Assembly (NCBI GenBank): GCA_016190055.1 | Contig: JACPRH010000037.1 | Coordinates: 62,001-126,000 of the forward strand | Reading direction: 5' to 3' | Length of the DNA stretch: 64,000 nt | Source of the DNA: Nitrososphaerota archaeon | Lineage (GTDB): Archaea > Thermoproteota > Nitrososphaeria > Nitrososphaerales > JACPRH01 | In this document: piece by piece, positions 45,112-60,419 of the stretch | Position numbering within the stretch: position 1 is the stretch's first letter | Layout: the number at the start of each line of letters is the position of its first letter | Program-made: the position numbers and the translations under genes | The notes under the pieces: model-generated | The model's database searches: none | The model's input: the letters and a program-made list of their open reading frames with translations, nothing else | What the model was told of the DNA's origin: nothing

Positions 45112-45262
45112 GGTCTCTTTCGCCTGATCGCATAATATAATTAACCTTTGGCAAAGGAGCCAAAATAAAGTATGTCTGCAATCACCTGCATCTAGGCTAG
45201 TAATTTGTCTAGGCGTTGCTTACGCTGATGCAAACTCGGTATTTTAGAATGATGTTTTTTTT

Positions 45263-45311
45263 GGAGTTCGGGAAAACCGAAAGACAAAACTCAAAAATCG
45301 CCTTTTCCTCG
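45263..45311 (+). promoter_or_regulatory. htrA promoter/leader block homologous to PepSY-operon promoter; contains TTCGG-GAAAA-CCGAA (45267-45281)
   Basis: 45/49 identity by eye to reverse complement of 55407-55455. Confidence 0.85.
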
Positions 45312-45332
45312 TTAATGACAGTGGAGAAGAGA

Positions 45333-46562
45333 ATGATTCGACGAAATATGGCTGTAAGCAAGGTAATTATCGTTGTCGCATTAGCTGTAATATTCTCAGT
45401 AGGGCTTCTCGCCGGACAGGTGTTGAACCTCGGGTTGAAACCTGCAGTAGAATCGCCAACTGCGACTAGCATAACATCCTCGTCAACAATAGCTACAGGT
45501 ATTGCTAGTACTAGCAGCACCACAACAACATCATCTTCGTCCTCGGTTTCTTCAACGACGCTTTCAACCACAACTACTACACAGGCCATCTTAGGGGATC
45601 TTACACCGCCTCAAATCTTCAAGAACGTCGAAGGCTCGGTTGTATCGATAGGCGTAACGTTACCGGGCGGAGAGGCACAGGGATCGGGCTTCGTGTTCGA
45701 CAATAAAGGTGACATTGTAACCAACAACCATGTGGTTGAAGGAGCTACAACAATTGATGTAACCTTCTTGAACGGAGACACCGTTACGGCGAAGCTTGTT
45801 GGCAGAGACGCATATGCGGACTTGGCGGTGATACAGGTTGACACAAGCTCTAGACAGTTGAAACCTGTGCCTTTAGGTGACAGCGATAAGCTGCAGGTGG
45901 GTGACCAGATCTTGGCGATAGGTAACCCATTTGGCCTCAGCGGTAGCATGTCAGCGGGAATAGTAAGTCAGCTTGGCAGAGAAACTCAGGGCACAGGCGG
46001 TTACATGATTATAGATCTGATCCAGATAGATGCAGTAGTTAACCCCGGTAACTCAGGTGGACCTCTCCTAAACATGAGGGGCGAAGTCGTCGGAGTTAAC
46101 ACACTCATCTTCTCTCAGTCAGGCGGCTTCGAAGGAGTCGGCCTATCCATTCCATCCAACACCGTGAAACGCGTAGCCACCTCACTGATATCTACCGGCC
46201 AATACAAGCACGCCTACTTAGGAGTACAAGGTACCGATGTGACACCTCAGATAGCTGACGCAATGAATCTAAGTCAAGCCAAAGGCTTTCTCTTAATGCA
46301 GGTCACACAGGGAGGACCAGCTGACAAAGCCGGTCTAAAAGGTGGAACAACTCAGACAACCATAGCTGGACAGACCGCCGTGCTGGGAGGAGACGTAATC
46401 ATAGACATAGACAATACAAACGTCAGAAAACTCTCCGACCTCTCGCTCTACACTGAGCGCAACAAGAGTCCCGGTGACACAGTGACTCTGAAGATTATTC
46501 GCGACGGCAAAGAAATGTCGGTTAACCTAGTGCTAGGCGAAAGACCTCAACCCGCAGGATAA
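45333..46562 (+). CDS. htrA: HtrA/DegP-like membrane-anchored serine protease with PDZ domain
   Basis: Listed from 45216; ATG at 45333 after GGAG likely. TNNHVVEGA (His), YADLAVIQVD (Asp), NPGNSGGPLLN (Ser), C-terminal PDZ, Ser/Thr-rich linker after TM. Confidence 0.93.
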   Translation: MIRRNMAVSKVIIVVALAVIFSVGLLAGQVLNLGLKPAVESPTATSITSSSTIATGIASTSSTTTTSSSSSVSSTTLSTTTTTQAILGDLTPPQIFKNVEGSVVSIGVTLPGGEAQGSGFVFDNKGDIVTNNHVVEGATTIDVTFLNGDTVTAKLVGRDAYADLAVIQVDTSSRQLKPVPLGDSDKLQVGDQILAIGNPFGLSGSMSAGIVSQLGRETQGTGGYMIIDLIQIDAVVNPGNSGGPLLNMRGEVVGVNTLIFSQSGGFEGVGLSIPSNTVKRVATSLISTGQYKHAYLGVQGTDVTPQIADAMNLSQAKGFLLMQVTQGGPADKAGLKGGTTQTTIAGQTAVLGGDVIIDIDNTNVRKLSDLSLYTERNKSPGDTVTLKIIRDGKEMSVNLVLGERPQPAG

Positions 46563-46683: not shown

Positions 46684-47988
46684 TCACTCGTGTCTTAGTG
46701 CTTCTACTGGGGTTAGTCGTGAGGCTCTCCACGCTGGGATGATTCCGGCTAGGGCCCCGATTGCGGTAGCCAAGAGGATAGCACCTATGAGAAGTTCGGG
46801 TGTTAAGGCGGGTGTTATAGTTATGGCTGAGGCTTGAGGCGTTTGAGCTACTCTGGTTGCTGCTCCTCCGCCTCCGAAACCAGCTCCGCCAAACCCTCCA
46901 CCGCCCATTCCACCTCCCATTCCTCCGAATCTTATTCCGCCTCCGAAGAAGCCTACTATGAAGTTGGAGAGTACGGCTCCTGATAGGCTTCCAACTACTC
47001 CTCCTATTAGGCCTGTGAGAACTGCCTCGGTTAAGAAGAAGAGCATTACGGTTCTGCCGCTGTATCCTAACGCTTTTGTAATCCCGATTTCTCTGACTCT
47101 TTCGTTGACTGAGGTGAACATGGTTGTGGTTATTCCCATGAATGCTACGGCCAGTGAGATGGATGCTATTGATGTCAGCATTGTGGTTATGGTGCCTGTG
47201 ATGCTCTGTATTGATGAGAGTAGTGAGGAGATTGTGATAACCCGTACGTTGTTTCCGTAGATGTCTGTGATTGCTTGCGAGACTTGATTTACAGTGTCTC
47301 GGCTTGTTGCTGCAATATAGAGACCTGAGTATGATGTTGAACCGGTTATGAATCTGCCCGCTTCGATTGGGATGAAGATGGTGTCATCGGGATTTATGAA
47401 GAGTCCTTGACCATACGTGGCCAGTGTTCCTGTAACTAAGAAGGATCTTGAAGTTGTCTTTGCCTGACCTCTCTGGATGGACTGTGTGGATGCGGTGATT
47501 ACTTGACTGATGTGGATTGGAGTCACAGTAGGATCTGATGGTGCGGCAAGCTGCGAGCCTATTATCGCTGAGGTGGTTTCTGAAGCCTGTGGGATTCTTC
47601 CATCAGAAACTTCTATGTCTGGGAAGAGTGTCCCTAGTTTGCTGGTGTCTAAAGCTATTACCGTGGCGGGGGTAGTTGTTCCTCCGTTCTTCAAGCTGAC
47701 TGTTAACCTGTAAAAGGGTATCACGTATTGAACCCCTGATATTTTTTGAATCGTCTCTACGTCGTTAGATGTGATGGTCACGCCTCTGCCTATAGGCATA
47801 ACTTGCATTGTGGTCACGCCTAATCTATCGAACTGAGCGGATACGCCTGTGCTGAATCCCTGTGTGGCAGCAACTAAAGCTACAATAGCTGCTGGTCCGA
47901 TTGCTATCCCTAGAATTGTTAAGGTTGCCCGGAGCTTCCTGGATCGAAGAGCACTGAAGGCGAAGGCAAGTATGTCCCGTATTAGCGT
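46684..47988 (-). CDS. MacB/FtsX-like ABC transporter permease with Gly-rich insertion; non-canonical start
   Basis: ORF track starts at GTG 47817, but frame is open to the TAG at 48001-48003 and reads ...LIRDILAFAFSALRSRKLRATLTILGIAIGPAAIVALVAATQGFSTGVSAQFDRLGVTTMQVMP; SD GGAGGT at 47996-48001, 7 nt before ACG at 47986-47988. Confidence 0.88.
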   Translation of the reverse strand, partial: TLIRDILAFAFSALRSRKLRATLTILGIAIGPAAIVALVAATQGFSTGVSAQFDRLGVTTMQVMPIGRGVTITSNDVETIQKISGVQYVIPFYRLTVSLKNGGTTTPATVIALDTSKLGTLFPDIEVSDGRIPQASETTSAIIGSQLAAPSDPTVTPIHISQVITASTQSIQRGQAKTTSRSFLVTGTLATYGQGLFINPDDTIFIPIEAGRFITGSTSYSGLYIAATSRDTVNQVSQAITDIYGNNVRVITISSLLSSIQSITGTITTMLTSIASISLAVAFMGITTTMFTSVNERVREIGITKALGYSGRTVMLFFLTEAVLTGLIGGVVGSLSGAVLSNFIVGFFGGGIRFGGMGGGMGGGGFGGAGFGGGGAATRVAQTPQASAITITPALTPELLIGAILLATAIGALAGIIPAWRASRLTPVEALRHE

Positions 47989-48000
47989 CGCCTTTACCTC

Positions 48001-51000
48001 CTACATTCGTTTCCTTCTTCGATACGCCCTTAGCCCCAGAAAGACACCAGCTACAGTGATTGAAGCTAGGCCTACGAGGAATATGATTCGGAAGGTTTCG
48101 AAACCAGCCGGGGTTTCACTGGTTATCTGCAGAGCAGCCTGCTGAATAGCGTTTTGGGATATGGATACTTGAACACTGGTTTCCTTGACATACTTCTGAC
48201 CGTAGCTGTCCTGGTAAGTTAGTACTACAGTGACGGGGTAAGAGCCGTTCCTCAGGTTCCTATTAGCGGTGGCTGCTAGGCTGAACGGGATCGGTGTGTT
48301 AGACGCGATATCTCCAATGTATTGGCTGCCCTCGCCGTTAGATCGGAATCTTGAGTCCGTCTTTAGAGTTACATTTGCGAAAAGGGCATCGGTGTTGCCT
48401 ATGTTGAGGATGTTTCCGGTTACTGTGAAGTTGCCGCCTATTGGAATTTGTGATGGGCTAGCTTGTACTCTTTGGTAGAGCGGGCTGATTGTTCCTTTCA
48501 CCGTGTACGCTATGCTTCTAGCCTCTTTGTGCCAGTTACCCGAACTGTCTAGGTAGGTTAAAGTCAATGTTAATCCCTGCAATGTGTCAGCTGAGCTAAG
48601 TGATGTTGAGACTGTGGGTACAACCGTTATTCCTGCGTGAGGTTTTATTGAGTCGAAGACCCAGTTATCTGTGCCAGATGCGATTGAGAGCGCACTAGAA
48701 GAGCTGGTGCTAGGCGCGATCGTCACCTCAACAGTTGAAAGTGGGTTGTCACCAGTGTTTCTAATCGTTATGGCGGGCTTATTCGTGTAACCTGCTGCTA
48801 AGCTGCTAGAGTTGGTGATTATGGATAATGGAGAGACGTAGTCTTTCACTCCTAGGCTTATTGTTTGGCTTTGTGTTTGAGCTACCTGCTGCCCATCTAC
48901 GTATGCGAGAGACAGTTGGAGTTGAACAGTTGAGCCTGAAAGAGATTGTGGAACCCGAATGCGAATGTAAAAGAGAACGCTGGCGTTACTTTGAAGAGCA
49001 CCTTGCTGCATCTGGCTTCCTCCTGAGAGGAGTGCTACTGGTGATTGCGCTGATGCGGTTATAGTGAGGTTGTAAATCGGTTGGCTGCGACCGTTGGTTA
49101 CCGAGACACCTAGGTCACTCGGCATATCTGCAACTATCCAATCTTTGTTTTGAGAGATGCTCAGTATTCCTTGCGAGCCGACGACAGTATTGAATCCAAT
49201 TACGATGTTGGAAGACTGTGCTGAGCCATGAGTATCGCGATATGAGACGGATGCGGGAATCTGGATGACCTTGGGTTGAGTTGAGGGTTCAACATAGAGG
49301 CGCAGTGAGCTTTTGACTACGCTGCCTCCGTCTAGGCTTTTGATTTGAATAAAGTTGCTGCCGCCAACCAACGTTGTACCGGTAGGTGGCGCTAGCTGGA
49401 TATTCAGGTTGCTTACTGTGGAGGTGCCGAGGTTCTTCACTGATAGTGTGACGCTGTTGATGGCGCCTGGTGTAAGTTGTGAAGAATCGGCTGTAATATC
49501 TATCATCGGGCTCTCGTAAGGTAGGACGTTAAAGCCTACTGTCCTGCTTGAGGACCAAGCGGAGCCTTGAATATCATTATACGACATTGAGGTGGCAATC
49601 TGTATTACTTTTGATCCAAGTGATGGGTCTACATAGAGAGTTATTGAGGTTGCTGCAGCATCTCCTCCACTCAGCCTCTTGAGGTAGAGAAGATTGCTGC
49701 CGCCAACCAATGTTGTACCGGTAGGCGGCGTTAGCTCAATGTTCAGATCACTTATTGGAGAGCCGCCTAGGTTTCGTATTGTAAAGGTAACGTTGTTAGC
49801 TACTCCGGGAGTTAGGGTTGAAGGAGTTGTGGTCACGTCGATTACTTGCCCTTTATGGGGGAGAACTTGGAACCCTATTGCGCCACTGTAAGACTGTGCT
49901 GAGCCGCGAGAGTTGTAGTATGAAATGGAGGTTTGAAGCTGCATTACGCCCGCGGCTTGTGCTGGTGGAACGTAGATGGAGATGGAGATGTTTACGCTGC
50001 TGCCTCCGGCGATAGTTGGGATGTTGATTTGGCTGCTGCCTCCGGCTAACGCTGAACCTGTAGGGAGGGTGAAGCTGATCTGTAAGTTGCTTACCGCGTT
50101 GCTTCCCTGGTTCTTTAGCGATAGGGCGATGTTGTTTGTTGATCCTGAGGTGAGGACAGTATTACTGGCTGTCAGCTCAAGGGTTTCTTTGTCTGGTGGA
50201 AGAACCCTGAGTCCAACGATTCTGTTGATGGTCTGGGTAAGGCCATAGGCGTCTCTGTATGACGCTGCGATGGTTATCTGAGTGTTTGACGCAGCGTTAT
50301 CGGATACATCTAAGGTGAGAGGTGTAGATAGGTTTGCACCAGCAGCTATCGAGGCGGCGGTTATCTGGTTATTGCCTGTCAGTGACACTACGCCTGTTGG
50401 GAGAGTTAGTGTTGCAGCGAAGTTTGAAGCCGCACTGCTCCCAAGATTATTGAATGTTAAGATAAAATTGTTGGTGGTACCTGCAACAAGCTGATCCTGA
50501 CTGAGTTGAATATATATGTTCGGCTTACCTAAGAGCGGAATTTGGAAGGGTAACTTAACAGGAACTGCGTGGATGAGCCCTGCGCCTGTGTTTAGATAGT
50601 AATCAACTATCATGTTCATGCTGTAGGTTCCGACTTGGGCGGTAGGATCTACGTCAAGGTTGAAGGTGAAGGTGGCGGTCTTGCCGGTGGCTACGTCCGA
50701 GCCATATGTTGATGTGATTTCATTGGTGTTTAGTCTAGAGGAGAACGGAGGAGCCAGTACAAGTGATGCGGTTAGACCAGTGATGGTATAGTTCGCGTTG
50801 TGGCTCATTGTTACTGTTAGCGGCACAGACAGGTCTCCAGGCGCTACTGACAGCTTTGAAGCAGTGTCACCCCAGTATGATGACGAAATAGCGAAATCGG
50901 TGACGAACACCTTCAATTCATATGTGGATGGCGTAGGGGTGAACTTTATGCCTGTGACTTCAATATAGTAGAAGCCTGGATTACTGACTACATAAGATAT

Positions 51001-51333
51001 GCTTCTGTTTCCTCCACTACTCAGGCTCTCTGATGATGCTACCTTTCCTACGTTACCTCCTGAGTCGACATTTGGAGAGAAGAGGTAGAGGTTCAGGATC
51101 GATGTATCAGGGACGTTGAGTTGGACACTGATGGTCTGCCCAGTCTGCGCATCCATTTTGAACCAGTGCGGTGGAGTTGTAAAGTCAACAGAATATCTTC
51201 CAGATGTTAACTGTAAGGCGGTGGTAGGTGAGGATCCGGCTTTCTGCACACCGGAGGCTAGCGCTGGACTATAAGCGGCGAGCGGCAAGTAGGCTAGAAG
51301 TAACACGAGAAGGATTACGGCATATTTGCTCAT
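48001..51333 (-). CDS. Large exported protein with repeated CARDB/NEW3-like domains, C-terminal TM anchor (COG1361-like)
   Basis: 1110 aa; signal peptide, repeats of [20 protein letters not shown]-terminal TM plus RRRKRM. Confidence 0.85.
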
Positions 51334-52514
51334 TATGCTACACCTCCGACGGAAGTGTATTCGTCACGTGCGATTTGCCCGTCTCTAATTTGGATGATTC
51401 TATCCGCTTCATTTGCAATCTCCATGTTATGCGTAATTATCACCACAGTTTTACCTATTGTCCTGTTCAAATGGTGCAAAAGATCGGTTATCGACTTGGT
51501 GTTCTTCGTGTCCAAGTTCCCTGTAGGCTCATCACCCAGGAGTATCGGGGGCTCGGTTACTAGGGCTCTGGCTACAGCTACGCGCTGCTGTTCTCCGCCA
51601 CTAAGCTTTGATGGAACCCGGTTAGCTTTGTCGCCGAGGCCCACTATTTGGAGCGCCTTTAGGGCTTTGTAACTCCGGTATTTTGGGGGCACATTCCTAG
51701 CCTCTAAAGGGAATTCTACGTTCTGAAGAGCGTTCATTCGATGAATCAAGTTGAAGGATTGAAAAATTAGCCCGATCTTCTTGTTCCTTAGCTCGGCGAG
51801 CTCTCTATCATTCAGCTTCGATATGTCTACACCGTCGATCAAGACTTTGCCTGAAGTCGGCTTATCCAAGGCGCCCACCATATTCATCAAAGTAGATTTT
51901 CCGCTTCCAGAGGGGCCAACTATAGCTACAAATTCGCCTTCAGCAATGTCAAGGGAGACTCCTCTAAGCGCCGGGGTCGCGACACCGTTTCCTGAATAGG
52001 TCTTAACCACCGAGTCAAGACGTATCACCACAGTCCTATCCGACCTTTCACCATGGGTTTGAGAAGAAGGTTGAGAGGCGGACTTAGTTCCTGTGAAGGG
52101 AGCTACAGTTTCTGTACTATGTGCTACATCAGCTTCTCCGTTATCTGGAGTATCAGCGCTACTGCTCTTCCCATAATCGTCTCCGTCTCCTGCGGACGGC
52201 GTTCTGAGAAGGATGCCGAGTGAGGTTATGACTACCCCGACTACGCCTACAAGATAGGCGGAGAACCGGTAATAGACTGTAGCAAACATAGATTGGGACC
52301 CTGACATGCCGGACATGAAACCTCCACCGTTGCCTCTCGGGAAGCTGAAATTTCCTGCCGCGAATTGACCGCCTTGGAATTGTCCACCTCGGAGCTGCCG
52401 GGCAGCCGGTGTGGAACCTGAGATCACCATGTTGAAACTTGGGTCAAAAACCATCAGAGTCGTGAAGGCTACTGCAACTAGTATTAGCCCTGTAATTACT
52501 ATTCTTTTACGCAT
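51333..52514 (-). CDS. MacB/LolD-type ABC ATPase fused to an N-terminal two-TM Gly/Met-rich domain
   Basis: 393 aa; C-terminal [43 protein letters not shown]-terminal about 120 aa homologous to 52536-52919. Confidence 0.9.
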
Positions 52515-52535
52515 TGTTCTTTCCCGCCTTACCTA

Positions 52536-52919
52536 TTATCCTTCTTCGTCTTTCGCATGCGTCTCTTTTGACTTTGGATTCAAGAGAGTGCCTAAAGCGG
52601 TAACCACTATGCCCACTACGCCTACAAGATAGGCGGAGAACCGGTAGTAGACTGTAGCAAACATAGATTGGGACTCTGACATGCCGGACATGAAATTTCT
52701 GTCGCCCATGCCGGCCATAAAGCCTCCATCGCCTCTTGTGAAGTTGAAGTTTCCGGCGCCGGGGGTAAAGTTGCCCCTTGGGAACTGTCCGTTCTGGAAC
52801 TGTCTTGCAGCTTGTGCTGAGCCGAAGAGGATTGCTTCTATTGAGGTGTCCAGAGCCATTAAAACAGCTAGGGACGCTATGATTAATACTAGTCCAGTTA
52901 CTACTATTATTTTACGCAT
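52536..52919 (-). CDS. Two-TM Gly/Met-rich protein, stand-alone paralogue of the ABC ATPase N-terminal domain
   Basis: 127 aa; shares [38 protein letters not shown] with 52514 protein. Confidence 0.8.
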   Translation of the reverse strand: MRKIIVVTGLVLIIASLAVLMALDTSIEAILFGSAQAARQFQNGQFPRGNFTPGAGNFNFTRGDGGFMAGMGDRNFMSGMSESQSMFATVYYRFSAYLVGVVGIVVTALGTLLNPKSKETHAKDEEG

Positions 52920-54373
52920 TGTTTTTCACTTTTATTCTTGGTTTGAGAGATAGGCATCATCAATTCGCTTAATCCGATTCTTCCTTTCCCTGAAGCCAGT
53001 TTGTAGATAGCAGTAAGCGTGTTGTGCTTCATCTTCGCTACCTCAGTCTTAATCAGCTCGTATTTACTGGCTGTATTCGCATTGTTGCCAAATGCGAAGG
53101 GCTCACGTATCCATCTGCGAAGCGCTACTCTGACTACGGCGTATGCGATGAAGATTGTTACGGCGATTACGATGAACCATTGTGGGTTGACGAGAGTCAC
53201 TGGTAGGGTTAGGAGAAGCGGCGCTGCTAGGGAGATCTCTGGGTCTTGGTAGACGCTGTTGTTGAAGCGGGAGAAGGAGAGTTGATTAGCGAATGCTACA
53301 GAGTACCGCCAAGACACTTGGTCACCGAAGCCTGGGTTCAGGCCTTGGACATTAACGCCCTGAGGCACCGCAGTGGGTGTTGATACCACGAAAACTGGTT
53401 GCAGCGCAGATTTCACGGCGTCAGTTCGGCTGACTCCGTCTACTACTGCGACTGGGCTGTAGGTTATCATAGATCTCGTAGATTTAGTCGCATTCTCCAC
53501 CAAAGCTACTCTCTGGTCTCTGACGGTTACTCCGGATAGGCCTTCGTATTGACCCTCCGTCTTGACTACAACTTCATCTTTACCTTGGTATATCACAGCT
53601 GAGATTACTGCGAGCTTTACGTTTTGACCTTGAGCCCAAGTTAAACCGTCGATACCGTATCCAAGCTTAATCGTAGGCCCCTCATGTTTGATGGTCAGCC
53701 TGTAGCCGAAGTGTACGCTAACGTTGTCCTGTTCGAGTCTAAATCGTTCATCTATGAGGCGCCAGTTGAAGCTCTTCACCGACGCTGACAGGTTCCAATC
53801 GTACTCAGGAGCACCTTCGCTGTTAACTTTGGTGAGGTTACCGATGTTCCAAGACCAGGTTCCGGACTGCCCGTTTTGCTCGAAGTGATTATACATAGGT
53901 GCTAAGGAGTATATTCTTAGGATTCTGTCACTCAAGTTCCAGTTCACGTTTTGATCGGAGAATTCATTCACCGAGTTTCTCCTTGTCTGTACATCAAAGA
54001 TGCCGTTCCCGTTTGCATCCTCGTACTGTATGAGGTAGAGCGGGATGTATGTTACCGAGTAGTTTAGCGTACCATCTTTTGAGTTTTTCAACATTTGAAG
54101 AATAGGGTAAGTATCGTAAACTCCTTGGAAATCTCGGTCTCTCCACCCCCTCTGCGGGGCTGGGGCTGCTATCTGCCACGCGAAGAGGATTTGGACGTTG
54201 CCGCCGTCTTCAGTAGGGGTAGTGACGTTGAAGCCGGTGTGTAGAGAGTTGTTGTAGCCTGCTTGAGCGTAAGTTACTGAAGGACCCTCTTCAGCGTAAA
54301 CCTGAGTCAAAAAAAGAGGATCGGAGAGTACTACCGTAAGCATCAGGGTCAGTAGCGCTCTCCTCAACGACAC
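52907..54373 (-). CDS. Exported/membrane protein, large extracytoplasmic domain, unknown family
   Basis: 488 aa; signal peptide, TM near residue 400, cytosolic tail. Confidence 0.7.
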   Translation of the reverse strand: MSLRRALLTLMLTVVLSDPLFLTQVYAEEGPSVTYAQAGYNNSLHTGFNVTTPTEDGGNVQILFAWQIAAPAPQRGWRDRDFQGVYDTYPILQMLKNSKDGTLNYSVTYIPLYLIQYEDANGNGIFDVQTRRNSVNEFSDQNVNWNLSDRILRIYSLAPMYNHFEQNGQSGTWSWNIGNLTKVNSEGAPEYDWNLSASVKSFNWRLIDERFRLEQDNVSVHFGYRLTIKHEGPTIKLGYGIDGLTWAQGQNVKLAVISAVIYQGKDEVVVKTEGQYEGLSGVTVRDQRVALVENATKSTRSMITYSPVAVVDGVSRTDAVKSALQPVFVVSTPTAVPQGVNVQGLNPGFGDQVSWRYSVAFANQLSFSRFNNSVYQDPEISLAAPLLLTLPVTLVNPQWFIVIAVTIFIAYAVVRVALRRWIREPFAFGNNANTASKYELIKTEVAKMKHNTLTAIYKLASGKGRIGLSELMMPISQTKNKSEKQCVK

Positions 54374-54385
54374 TTCTCGTTACAC

Positions 54386-55390
54386 CTACCTATGCATCGA
54401 TGAAAATCCGAGTATGTCGCCGGTTCTGCCGTTTACTCTGATGTTGCCGATGGTGTCGCCGTTTGAGTCAATGATTGGCACGTTATAGACTGACCTCTGC
54501 TGCTTCGGCTCTCCTGCTGTCCAACCTTTCTCTAGAGAGCTTTTCACAGCGTTAACAGCGTCTTCAGACTTGGGGGTGTTGATCTTTCCTAGAATCACTG
54601 TCATGACTGTCTTGTTACCGTCTTTAATGCTCACGATCCAGGTGCCGACTCTTTCCTTAACTGCGCCCACCGTGAAGTTCTTGATAGCGTTGCTTACCGT
54701 TGTCTTGACCTGTGCGCTGGTTACGGCGAGAGTGGGTGAGGATGATGTCAGCATAATATTTCCACTCCTACTGTCTACACGCACGTAGCTTATTGTTTTA
54801 TTGCTAGAGTCAAGCAGTGGAACGTAGTACACTGTTCTTACCAGCTTAGGCGTTCCGGCTGTCCAGCCTTTAGCCAATGAATCGGTTACGACGGTTTTGG
54901 CTTGATCTGTTGTGTTGGCGGTTACGTGGCTTACACGTATCATTGTCACTATGCCTTCTCCATCCTCGATTGGGACTATCCAGCTTAGCCGGAAGGAGCT
55001 TGGTGTGCCTACCTTCAGGTTAGGGATATCCGCTTCAACCGCTGACTTTGCTTGTGCTGAGGTGATGGTTACGTTTTCAGACATTCCCGGTCCCCAATGC
55101 GAAAACCTGTAGTTTCCATGTGTGAAGAGGTTCTTGCCGAATGTTAACATTTGGTTCCAACCATTCATCAGAGGCATTATAGCTTGCCCGGATGGGTTGG
55201 CGTATCTCTCCCTTGATTGACTATACATGTGTGGTGAACCTGCGCTTCTACCTGTAGACGCGGCTATTGTTGTTGATCCTGTGGTTGCAGCCGCTGCGGC
55301 GGCTGTGAATGTGATATTCGCGGCTAGGATTGAACCTGCTATTACTGCGATGACCACCGAAAGAAGTAGGATTTTGCGGTGCATGCCCAT
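54386..55390 (-). CDS. Exported PepSY-like repeat protein
   Basis: 334 aa; signal peptide; three similar units such as SAQAKSAVEADIPNLKVG...IVPIEDGEG and YVPLLDSSNKTISYVRVDSRSGNIM / YNVPIIDSNGDTIGNIRVNGRTGDIL. Confidence 0.75.
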   Translation of the reverse strand: MGMHRKILLLSVVIAVIAGSILAANITFTAAAAAATTGSTTIAASTGRSAGSPHMYSQSRERYANPSGQAIMPLMNGWNQMLTFGKNLFTHGNYRFSHWGPGMSENVTITSAQAKSAVEADIPNLKVGTPSSFRLSWIVPIEDGEGIVTMIRVSHVTANTTDQAKTVVTDSLAKGWTAGTPKLVRTVYYVPLLDSSNKTISYVRVDSRSGNIMLTSSSPTLAVTSAQVKTTVSNAIKNFTVGAVKERVGTWIVSIKDGNKTVMTVILGKINTPKSEDAVNAVKSSLEKGWTAGEPKQQRSVYNVPIIDSNGDTIGNIRVNGRTGDILGFSSMHR

Positions 55391-55406: not shown

Positions 55407-55455
55407 CAAGGAAAAAGCGATTTTTGAGGTTTGTCTTTCGGTTTTTCCGAACTCC
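55407..55455 (-). promoter_or_regulatory. PepSY-operon promoter/leader block; contains palindrome TTCGG-TTTTT-CCGAA (55437-55451)
   Basis: 45/49 identity to htrA leader 45263-45311. Confidence 0.85.
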
Positions 55456-55470
55456 TAGAAGTACGGTATA

Positions 55471-55485
55471 TTCGGAATTTCCGAA
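55471..55485. promoter_or_regulatory. Second operator palindrome in PepSY promoter
   Basis: TTCGG-AATTT-CCGAA, 34 bp from the first; overlaps minus-strand TATA-like AATATAC. Confidence 0.8.
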
Positions 55486-55536: not shown

Positions 55537-56364
55537 TCAAAGTGTTGTGAAGAAGTAGGCTAGTCCTAAGGATACGTAGAGGGTGATCGAGGCGAGTAGA
55601 GCAGCCTTCTCGGTAGCTAGTCCCTTGGAGAGAGATATTGCGGAGGTGAGGAAGCCTAGGGAGTAGCCTACTCCGATGAGCATGAGTATCTGTATCTGAA
55701 GGCTTGTCAGGTGAGTCTGGAAACCTTCAGCGATAACGTACACAGTTGGTGCAATAAGGCTGGGTGCAAGCGCGAAGGCGGATCCTAGCAGTAGAGGTTT
55801 TGCGCCGCCCTGTGTTCTATAAGCGACGAAGGACAGGAGGTTTGCAAGAGCATTAATCAGCAGATAACCCAGTATGAAGAGTAAAGGTATGTAGAGCGGC
55901 GAGATAGGCAGGCGGTTCACGTAGATGAAGATTAACGGGTATAACCCCGACAGGTACGCTATTAGTGTGCCGTAGAGGAGCACCATTGCAGCGAAGAGGG
56001 AGGCGAGTCTTGGTCTCGCATACAGGTTGGAGATGAACCGCCAACCGATCAACCAGAGAGTGATGTAGCCTGCAACAGTCTGGTCTCGTTTGACGAAGCG
56101 GCTTGACGTTAGCTTCTCGTAGCTTTCAGATAGAAGCTGGTATGCGAACTTGCCTTTCTCGTTCAACCGGTACTTCTTAGCGTCATCTTGCTCAATCAGC
56201 TCGGTCAAAAAATCGATCTGGTAATACAGCGTGCCGGTGCTTACATTCAGGTATGCTTTTAGATCTGTAAAGCCACCCTGCCCATTCTCTCCAAGATACT
56301 TTATGATTTTTCGTCTCAAAGGATGACCTATCATGGTAAAGAAGTGCGAGACCTCATCCTCCAA
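55537..56364 (-). CDS. Membrane-bound one-component regulator: N-terminal ArsR-like winged helix plus C-terminal multi-TM domain
   Basis: ORF to 56412 (GTG); TTG at 56364 after AGGTGG is a plausible start. HPLRRKIIKYLGENGQGGFTDLKAYLNVSTGTLYYQIDFL; then several TM helices. Confidence 0.82.
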   Translation of the reverse strand: MEDEVSHFFTMIGHPLRRKIIKYLGENGQGGFTDLKAYLNVSTGTLYYQIDFLTELIEQDDAKKYRLNEKGKFAYQLLSESYEKLTSSRFVKRDQTVAGYITLWLIGWRFISNLYARPRLASLFAAMVLLYGTLIAYLSGLYPLIFIYVNRLPISPLYIPLLFILGYLLINALANLLSFVAYRTQGGAKPLLLGSAFALAPSLIAPTVYVIAEGFQTHLTSLQIQILMLIGVGYSLGFLTSAISLSKGLATEKAALLASITLYVSLGLAYFFTTL

Positions 56365-56418
56365 GCTAGGCCACCTCGAATCATCCGGTATGTTTGAAAC
56401 AGTATTAAACACATTTTG

Positions 56419-56433
56419 TTCGAAATATCCGAA
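56419..56433. promoter_or_regulatory. Operator palindrome upstream of the regulator (autoregulation candidate)
   Basis: TTCGA-AATAT-CCGAA, next to TTTAATAC TATA-like sequence. Confidence 0.75.
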
Positions 56434-59991: not shown

Positions 59992-60219
59992 GTGTCTGTA
60001 GATATGGCGATTCGTGTACTTGACGAAAGTGTAGGAAAGATAGTTCTGATTAAGCTGAAGGGAGGCAAGATTATTCGCGGTGTTCTCCAAGGGTTCGATC
60101 AGCACATGAATCTCGTGCTGAGAGAGTCAGAGGAAATCGTCGAAGAGGGGCCTAAGAGGTTAGGAACGATTGTGGTGAGAGGAGATAATGTTGTGATTAT
60201 CTCACCTCCACCGAGCTAA
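59992..60219 (+). CDS. Sm-like (LSm) archaeal protein
   Basis: 75 aa; [36 protein letters not shown]...[16 protein letters not shown]. Confidence 0.95.
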
Positions 60220-60251
60220 GCAGTTACATCAATGAGAGGGTTTGAACAGGA

Positions 60252-60419
60252 TTGACAAAAGGAACATCATCATTCGGTAAGAGAAGTAAAGGACATACCC
60301 ACATCAGATGTCGGAGATGCGGCAGACACTCCTTCCACGTTAACAAGAAAAAATGCTCTTACTGCGGCTTCGGTGCTTCACCGAAGATTCGGCAGTACAC
60401 CTGGGCTAAGAGAAGGTAG
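60252..60419 (+). CDS. rpl37e: Ribosomal protein L37e (not in the supplied ORF track)
   Basis: TTG start; MTKGTSSFGKRSKGHTHIRCRRCGRHSFHVNKKKCSYCGFGASPKIRQYTWAKRR, 55 aa. Confidence 0.95.
   Translation: MTKGTSSFGKRSKGHTHIRCRRCGRHSFHVNKKKCSYCGFGASPKIRQYTWAKRR

Follow-up and report, generated by a model that had tools for sequence, protein, structure and literature searches.

Bacterial extracytoplasmic stress regulons (Cpx, sigma-E) control an HtrA/DegP-type protease together with other envelope genes and small RNAs, while the sensing and repair of damage outside the membrane is poorly known in archaea. Our literature search for archaea combined with HtrA and envelope stress, or with PepSY, returned nothing. 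Here we analyse a 64,000-nucleotide stretch (the window) of a Nitrososphaerota genome (G000) in which an htrA gene and a PepSY operon share a promoter block; no two-component or sigma/anti-sigma proteins are involved, and its likeness to the bacterial regulons is one of analogy only.

The closest parallel in mechanism is offered by ArnR and ArnR1, membrane-bound activators of the flaB promoter of Sulfolobus acidocaldarius that carry an N-terminal helix-turn-helix (HTH) and a C-terminal membrane anchor (PMC6396743). Their sites are two 15-bp inverted repeats (TCGAC-N5-GTCGA, between -84 and -43) just upstream of the BRE/TATA, both boxes are needed for binding, and activation was shown by deletion (PMC6396743). 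At the fla promoter of Methanococcus maripaludis, the dependence on the activator EarA stems from a weak BRE, and EarA is thought to recruit TFB (PMC5512572).

The locus analysed here would resemble the ArnR system in pairing a putative HTH with a membrane anchor and, if TCAAAAA is the TATA box, in placing two 15-bp inverted repeats upstream of the BRE/TATA. It differs in the half-site (TTCGG), in the larger spacing of the boxes, in its targets (htrA, a PepSY/ABC operon and an RNA, rather than archaellum genes) and in its protein, which has about five transmembrane (TM) segments and in which a HAMP/sensor region was not found, whereas ArnR has two C-terminal TM segments and a HAMP/sensor region. 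The likeness thus appears to be one of working and not of family membership. With EarA it would share the combination of an activator and a weak BRE, although EarA is a different protein that uses TACATA repeats (PMC5512572). The candidate regulator joins a putative DNA-binding domain (the HTH match is weak) and TM segments (clear in the hydropathy profile, at least one) in one protein, as transmembrane transcription regulators do; it is multi-spanning, whereas the common type of that group is single-pass and the group's target promoters are not known (PMC10269533).

Shared sequence at two convergent genes

Positions 45263-45311 (plus strand) and 55455-55407 (minus strand) were identical at 45 of 49 positions in a pairwise alignment, so the shared block described in the first-pass annotation is confirmed. 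By comparison, when the two 520-bp regions were dinucleotide-shuffled 300 times, the best ungapped 49-mer match reached 29/49. The 27-nt core of the block has an expectation of 0 matches in the window and was observed twice; in the 2.2-Mb assembly, allowing up to 3 mismatches, it was recovered at the htrA and PepSY copies only. Outside the block, ungapped identity was 15/49 just upstream (the background level) and 18/49 downstream. Farther upstream both promoters carry a further repeat, degenerate at htrA (32 bp) and perfect at PepSY (34 bp), and the match is therefore broader than the 49 bp originally noted. The genes concerned are:

45333..46562, plus strand: htrA/DegP-type membrane-anchored serine protease with PDZ; corrected start ATG 45333, Shine-Dalgarno sequence (SD) GGAG at 45323-45326
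46684..54373, minus strand: remainder of the PepSY operon, namely hyp488, hyp127, a LolD/MacB-like ABC ATPase, an Ig-like secreted protein of 1110 aa and an FtsX-like permease
54386..55384, minus strand: secreted PepSY-like protein, opening gene of the operon, with ATG 55384 as the preferred start
55537..56364, minus strand: putative regulator with an N-terminal winged helix and about five TM segments; start TTG 56364 after SD GAGGTGG

The HtrA protein combines trypsin-like and PDZ domains with a membrane anchor, as expected of the HtrA/DegP type (Trypsin_2, 4e-34; PDZ_2, 9e-14; Do family, 2e-91 though below the curated cut-off; GNSGGP present; TM at 8-26). Its listed start, TTG 45216, had already been called into question and is very probably wrong, because the coding region would then run through the operator and core promoter, and because ATG 45333 is preceded, 6 nt upstream, by the GGAG SD. 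The intergenic region of the htrA promoter also holds a palindrome (TTTGGC-AAAGGA-GCCAAA, 45147-45164) that is kept in the sister species; lying toward the divergently oriented ATP sulfurylase genes, it is possibly an operator of a sulfur-assimilation operon.

The PepSY operon converges on htrA. Its first gene probably begins at the second ATG (55384, not 55390), since this codon corresponds to the start of the orthologue in G009 (MNRKI/MHRKI). The order regulator, PepSY, hyp488, followed by ABC ATPase, Ig-like protein and FtsX permease (with varying internal order), is kept in family f6, and G015 has the same order minus PepSY. The last three genes (window 46684-52919) were not found in the matching region of the sister species (L015); being operon members in two other families, they were probably deleted there. 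Elsewhere in the window, at 59992-60419, inspection revealed genes for two proteins, one Sm-like and the other a zinc protein resembling ribosomal protein L37e, a gene content that marks the genome as archaeal.

Operator geometry

Eleven promoters from five genomes and three families were aligned on the inverted repeat: those of htrA, PepSY, the regulator gene and an RNA locus (each in two species), PepSY of G009 and G023, and hyp488 of G015. The resulting layout comprises a distal 15-bp repeat, 19 bp, a proximal 15-bp repeat (TTCGG-N5-CCGAA and variants), 9 nt and an element at the TATA position. The last spacer is exactly 9 nt in 11/11 promoters, and the element that follows is TCAAAAA(T/C) for htrA, PepSY and the RNA locus; the regulator gene has TTTAATAC and hyp488 of G015 has TTAAAGTC. 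The upstream repeat is present in nine of the promoters, at 34 bp (32-33 bp at htrA), and is missing at the regulator gene, where a single operator is conserved in both members of the genus. These promoters are not independent observations, given that 8/11 belong to one genus and that the htrA copy is limited to two species. The elements in the window are:

45235..45249, plus strand: distal operator of htrA, degenerate (CTCGGTATTTTAGAA), its start 32 bp from that of the proximal site
45267..45281, plus strand: proximal operator of htrA (TTCGGGAAAACCGAA)
45282..45290, plus strand: 9-nt spacer of htrA with the presumed BRE (AGACAAAAC); length constant in 11 promoters
45291..45298, plus strand: TATA-position element of htrA (TCAAAAAT), 42 nt before the ATG
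45318..45324, plus strand: predicted transcription start region of htrA, about 27 nt past the TATA centre
55471..55485, minus strand: distal operator of the PepSY operon (TTCGGAAATTCCGAA)
55437..55451, minus strand: proximal operator of the PepSY operon (TTCGGAAAAACCGAA); spacing to the distal site 34 bp
55420..55427, minus strand: TATA-position element of the PepSY operon (TCAAAAAT), following the operator by 9 nt and lying 43 nt before ATG 55384
56419..56433, minus strand: operator of the regulator gene (TTCGGATATTTCGAA; TTCGGATATTCCGAA in the sister species)
56402..56409, minus strand: predicted TATA element of the regulator gene (TTTAATAC), 9 nt after the operator

In the sister species the distal htrA operator reads CTCGGTATTTTCGAA and lies at 33 bp. 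In each of the two species of the genus, a search with the composite pattern (1 mismatch) recovered the promoters of htrA, PepSY, the regulator gene and the RNA locus, the remaining matches being unshared and at about the control frequency. Exact operator matches on contigs C35 and C43 were rejected as regulon members, as they lack the downstream element and the one on C43 looks coding. A relative of PepSY also occurs in an unrelated, uncultured archaeon (L003), but the block was not found there.

An RNA locus with the same promoter

A relaxed search with the operator and the sequence after it disclosed a third target:

G000:C11:33316-33456 (L133): RNA locus

Its promoter has the same operator pair and TATA-position layout in both species of the genus. 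The locus spans approximately 115-140 nt that are 92% conserved between the two species, the flanks are not conserved, and the product is apparently noncoding. A 75-nt core (GGTGGGGTTGTGGCGGC...CCCCAC.GGTGCAGGAGCCACATGCCTGCACC) is present at least 11 times across four genomes of a single family (L133; L134-L143) and supports nested hairpins and a loop pseudoknot, the helix of which is 100% paired in all copies; as this helix is nearly invariant, covariation lends modest support. Two copies scanned against Rfam matched no RNA family, and within the upstream sequence read the promoter was not found at the other copies. Several copies lie just after genes for secreted proteins that end in a TM segment and RKK.

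Age and constraint of the block

When sought in relatives, the block proved to be conserved in the sister species (G001, the sole other species compared in the genus), where the htrA and PepSY blocks are likewise convergent, 3.9 kb apart and followed by the same genes. Orthologous blocks are identical at 46/49 (htrA) and 48/49 (PepSY) positions between the two species, and the htrA copy matches the PepSY copy at 43-45/49. Both copies therefore predate the species split, and the suggestion of a recent promoter duplication does not hold. Since only 68% of fourfold degenerate sites are identical between the species (as against 94-98% of the block), the blocks have been held by selection. The block was absent at htrA of G009, G023 and G015, as well as at the genus's second htrA paralogue (64% identity; G001:C2:27988 and G000:C14:46558), and because htrA of other families is without it, htrA would have entered the promoter set in the genus or shortly before.

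That the block is a passive copy, a duplicated promoter segment still undiverged, would suit the resemblance of the htrA and PepSY blocks (43-45/49) and the confinement of the htrA block to this genus. We give this explanation hardly any credence, considering that the copies are older than a split across which fourfold sites have diverged so far, and that a third, less similar copy has retained the operator, the spacing and TCAAAAA. Duplication may be how the copies arose, but constraint maintains the block.

The stretch downstream of the operator

The first-pass annotation saw in the block a shared promoter whose conservation runs about 30 nt past the operator into a probable 5' leader, possibly with a function of its own (RNA element, ribosome-binding-site control or a second factor). 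The promoter is indeed conserved in the sister species, and partly so in two further families, and the extended conservation stands; the leader reading is for the most part unsupported. Most likely the ~30 nt are a core promoter (BRE and weak TATA) from which transcription would begin immediately beyond the block, because the element lies where two of the promoters have better TATA boxes and always follows the operator by 9 nt. A second factor may be at work after all, in the sense of TBP/TFB.

Spacing points in the same direction. TATA-like words in 68 upstream regions of this genus peak between -50 and -26 from the start codon, a range that includes TCAAAAAT at -42 (htrA) and -43 (PepSY), and the strongly conserved part of the RNA locus, which looks transcribed, begins about 27 nt after the centre of TCAAAAAC. 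On these grounds we read the stretch as BRE, weak TATA and a pyrimidine-rich segment ahead of the start. The BRE would fall within AGACAAAnC and, judging from spacing, htrA transcription would begin at ~45318-45324 and yield a short leader with an SD. De novo motif search in the 68 regions gave no clean BRE/TATA matrix, the word-position histogram alone being informative, and TCAAAAA is a poor TATA box, which counts against the core-promoter reading.

TATA-like words also occur between the two operators at several promoters (CTTTTATA, AATATAC, CTTTAAGG), and the TATA box could lie there (e.g., CTTTTATA in sister htrA), with the proximal operator as a repressor site and the conserved stretch as a 45-nt transcribed leader that would include the SD. 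While CTTTTATAG in htrA of G001 and CTTGTAAA in G009 would fit, such a word is missing at the RNA promoters (CATCTAGTTCTGCGTGAGT) and at htrA of G000 (a T-run only), and the TATA would sit at about -72 from the ATG, outside the peak. The inter-operator spacer is moreover less conserved than the post-operator stretch, and the operator-N9-TATA geometry is common to the regulator gene (TTTAATAC) and G015 (TTAAAGTC), so that we regard this arrangement as unlikely.

As a switch or thermometer, the RNA would pair CUUUUCC with the SD of htrA and PepSY (GGAGAAG / GGGAAAG) and hide it until warmed. Helices of 7-9 bp can be drawn in 4/4 genus sequences (a perfect 9 bp in sister htrA), and substitutions between species keep or improve the pairing; a pyrimidine tract, however, pairs easily with a purine-rich SD by chance, the fold z-scores (-0.29, -1.70 for sister htrA, +0.95 and +1.25) are not significant in 3/4 cases, and the helix is lost in G009 and G023 (family f6). 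The stable, conserved U-run/SD helix of FourU-type thermometers is accordingly not seen here. Furthermore, the invariant TCAAAAA stays unpaired, the same element is also found ahead of an RNA gene that has no SD, and the preferred model puts CUUUUCC upstream of the transcription start. Rfam scans of the block and the RNA locus returned no family at the gathering threshold, and RNA-level control of this kind seems to us very improbable.

A candidate membrane-bound regulator

The gene directly upstream of PepSY encodes the putative regulator (275 aa), which probably starts at TTG 56364 rather than GTG 56412 and has about five hydrophobic segments by hydropathy. HTH_34, HTH_5 and DUF7347 match all five orthologues below threshold (the window protein falls under the curated Pfam cut-offs), and a Pfam search yielded no domain beyond the HTH. 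The N-terminal domain had no sequence match in the PDB, and the AlphaFold model, of low confidence (mean pLDDT 46.8), was set aside.

Among the genomes searched in the order and class, orthologues (59-93% identity) were present in only five, the window's own included, and in 5/5 of them the next downstream promoter bears the operator pair. The exact operator site was not found in same-family genomes that lack a close orthologue, though these genomes are small. This linkage makes the membrane winged-helix protein (55537-56364) the likely regulator of these promoters.

Proposed regulation

Putting these observations together, we consider it fairly probable that the block is part of a regulated archaeal core promoter with a second operator, driven by the membrane winged-helix protein as an activator. 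The 49 bp would comprise the 15-bp operator, 9 nt with the BRE, the weak TATA-like box TCAAAAA and a pyrimidine-rich stretch before the start, with the second operator about three helical turns upstream of the first. Two operators so spaced, ending just before the BRE and a poor TATA, have the layout expected of an activator that recruits TFB/TBP. From the membrane, the protein would bind the operator pair as dimers and, upon a cell-surface signal, help TFB/TBP to occupy the weak BRE/TATA. Expression of htrA, of the PepSY-ABC-transporter operon and of the small RNA would rise together, and the regulator would act on its own gene through the single operator. Repression instead of activation is possible.

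The targets (HtrA, a secreted PepSY protein and a LolD/MacB-like transporter) suggest a response to cell-surface damage, the signal itself being a guess. It is thus a tentative proposal, in our estimate somewhat less probable than its negation, that this is an archaeal counterpart of the bacterial envelope-stress regulons, in which a membrane winged-helix protein senses surface trouble and directly activates HtrA, the PepSY/ABC operon, itself and a small pseudoknotted RNA through a fixed-geometry operator and weak-TATA promoter.

Judged from sequence comparison, the block appears to be a genuine regulatory element, and for its regulator, whose action we infer, there is a good candidate. A conserved block that looked like a leader became recognisable as a probable weak core promoter by comparing spacing over unrelated target genes. 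The locus offers a compact, testable circuit: its operator is defined, each genome has four target promoters, there is a membrane-bound candidate for the regulator, and a class of signal can be predicted. If the proposal is true, an HtrA protease, a secreted-protein operon and a small RNA-like gene would stand under one promoter design in this uncultured archaeon, much like the circuits with which bacteria respond to stress at the cell surface.
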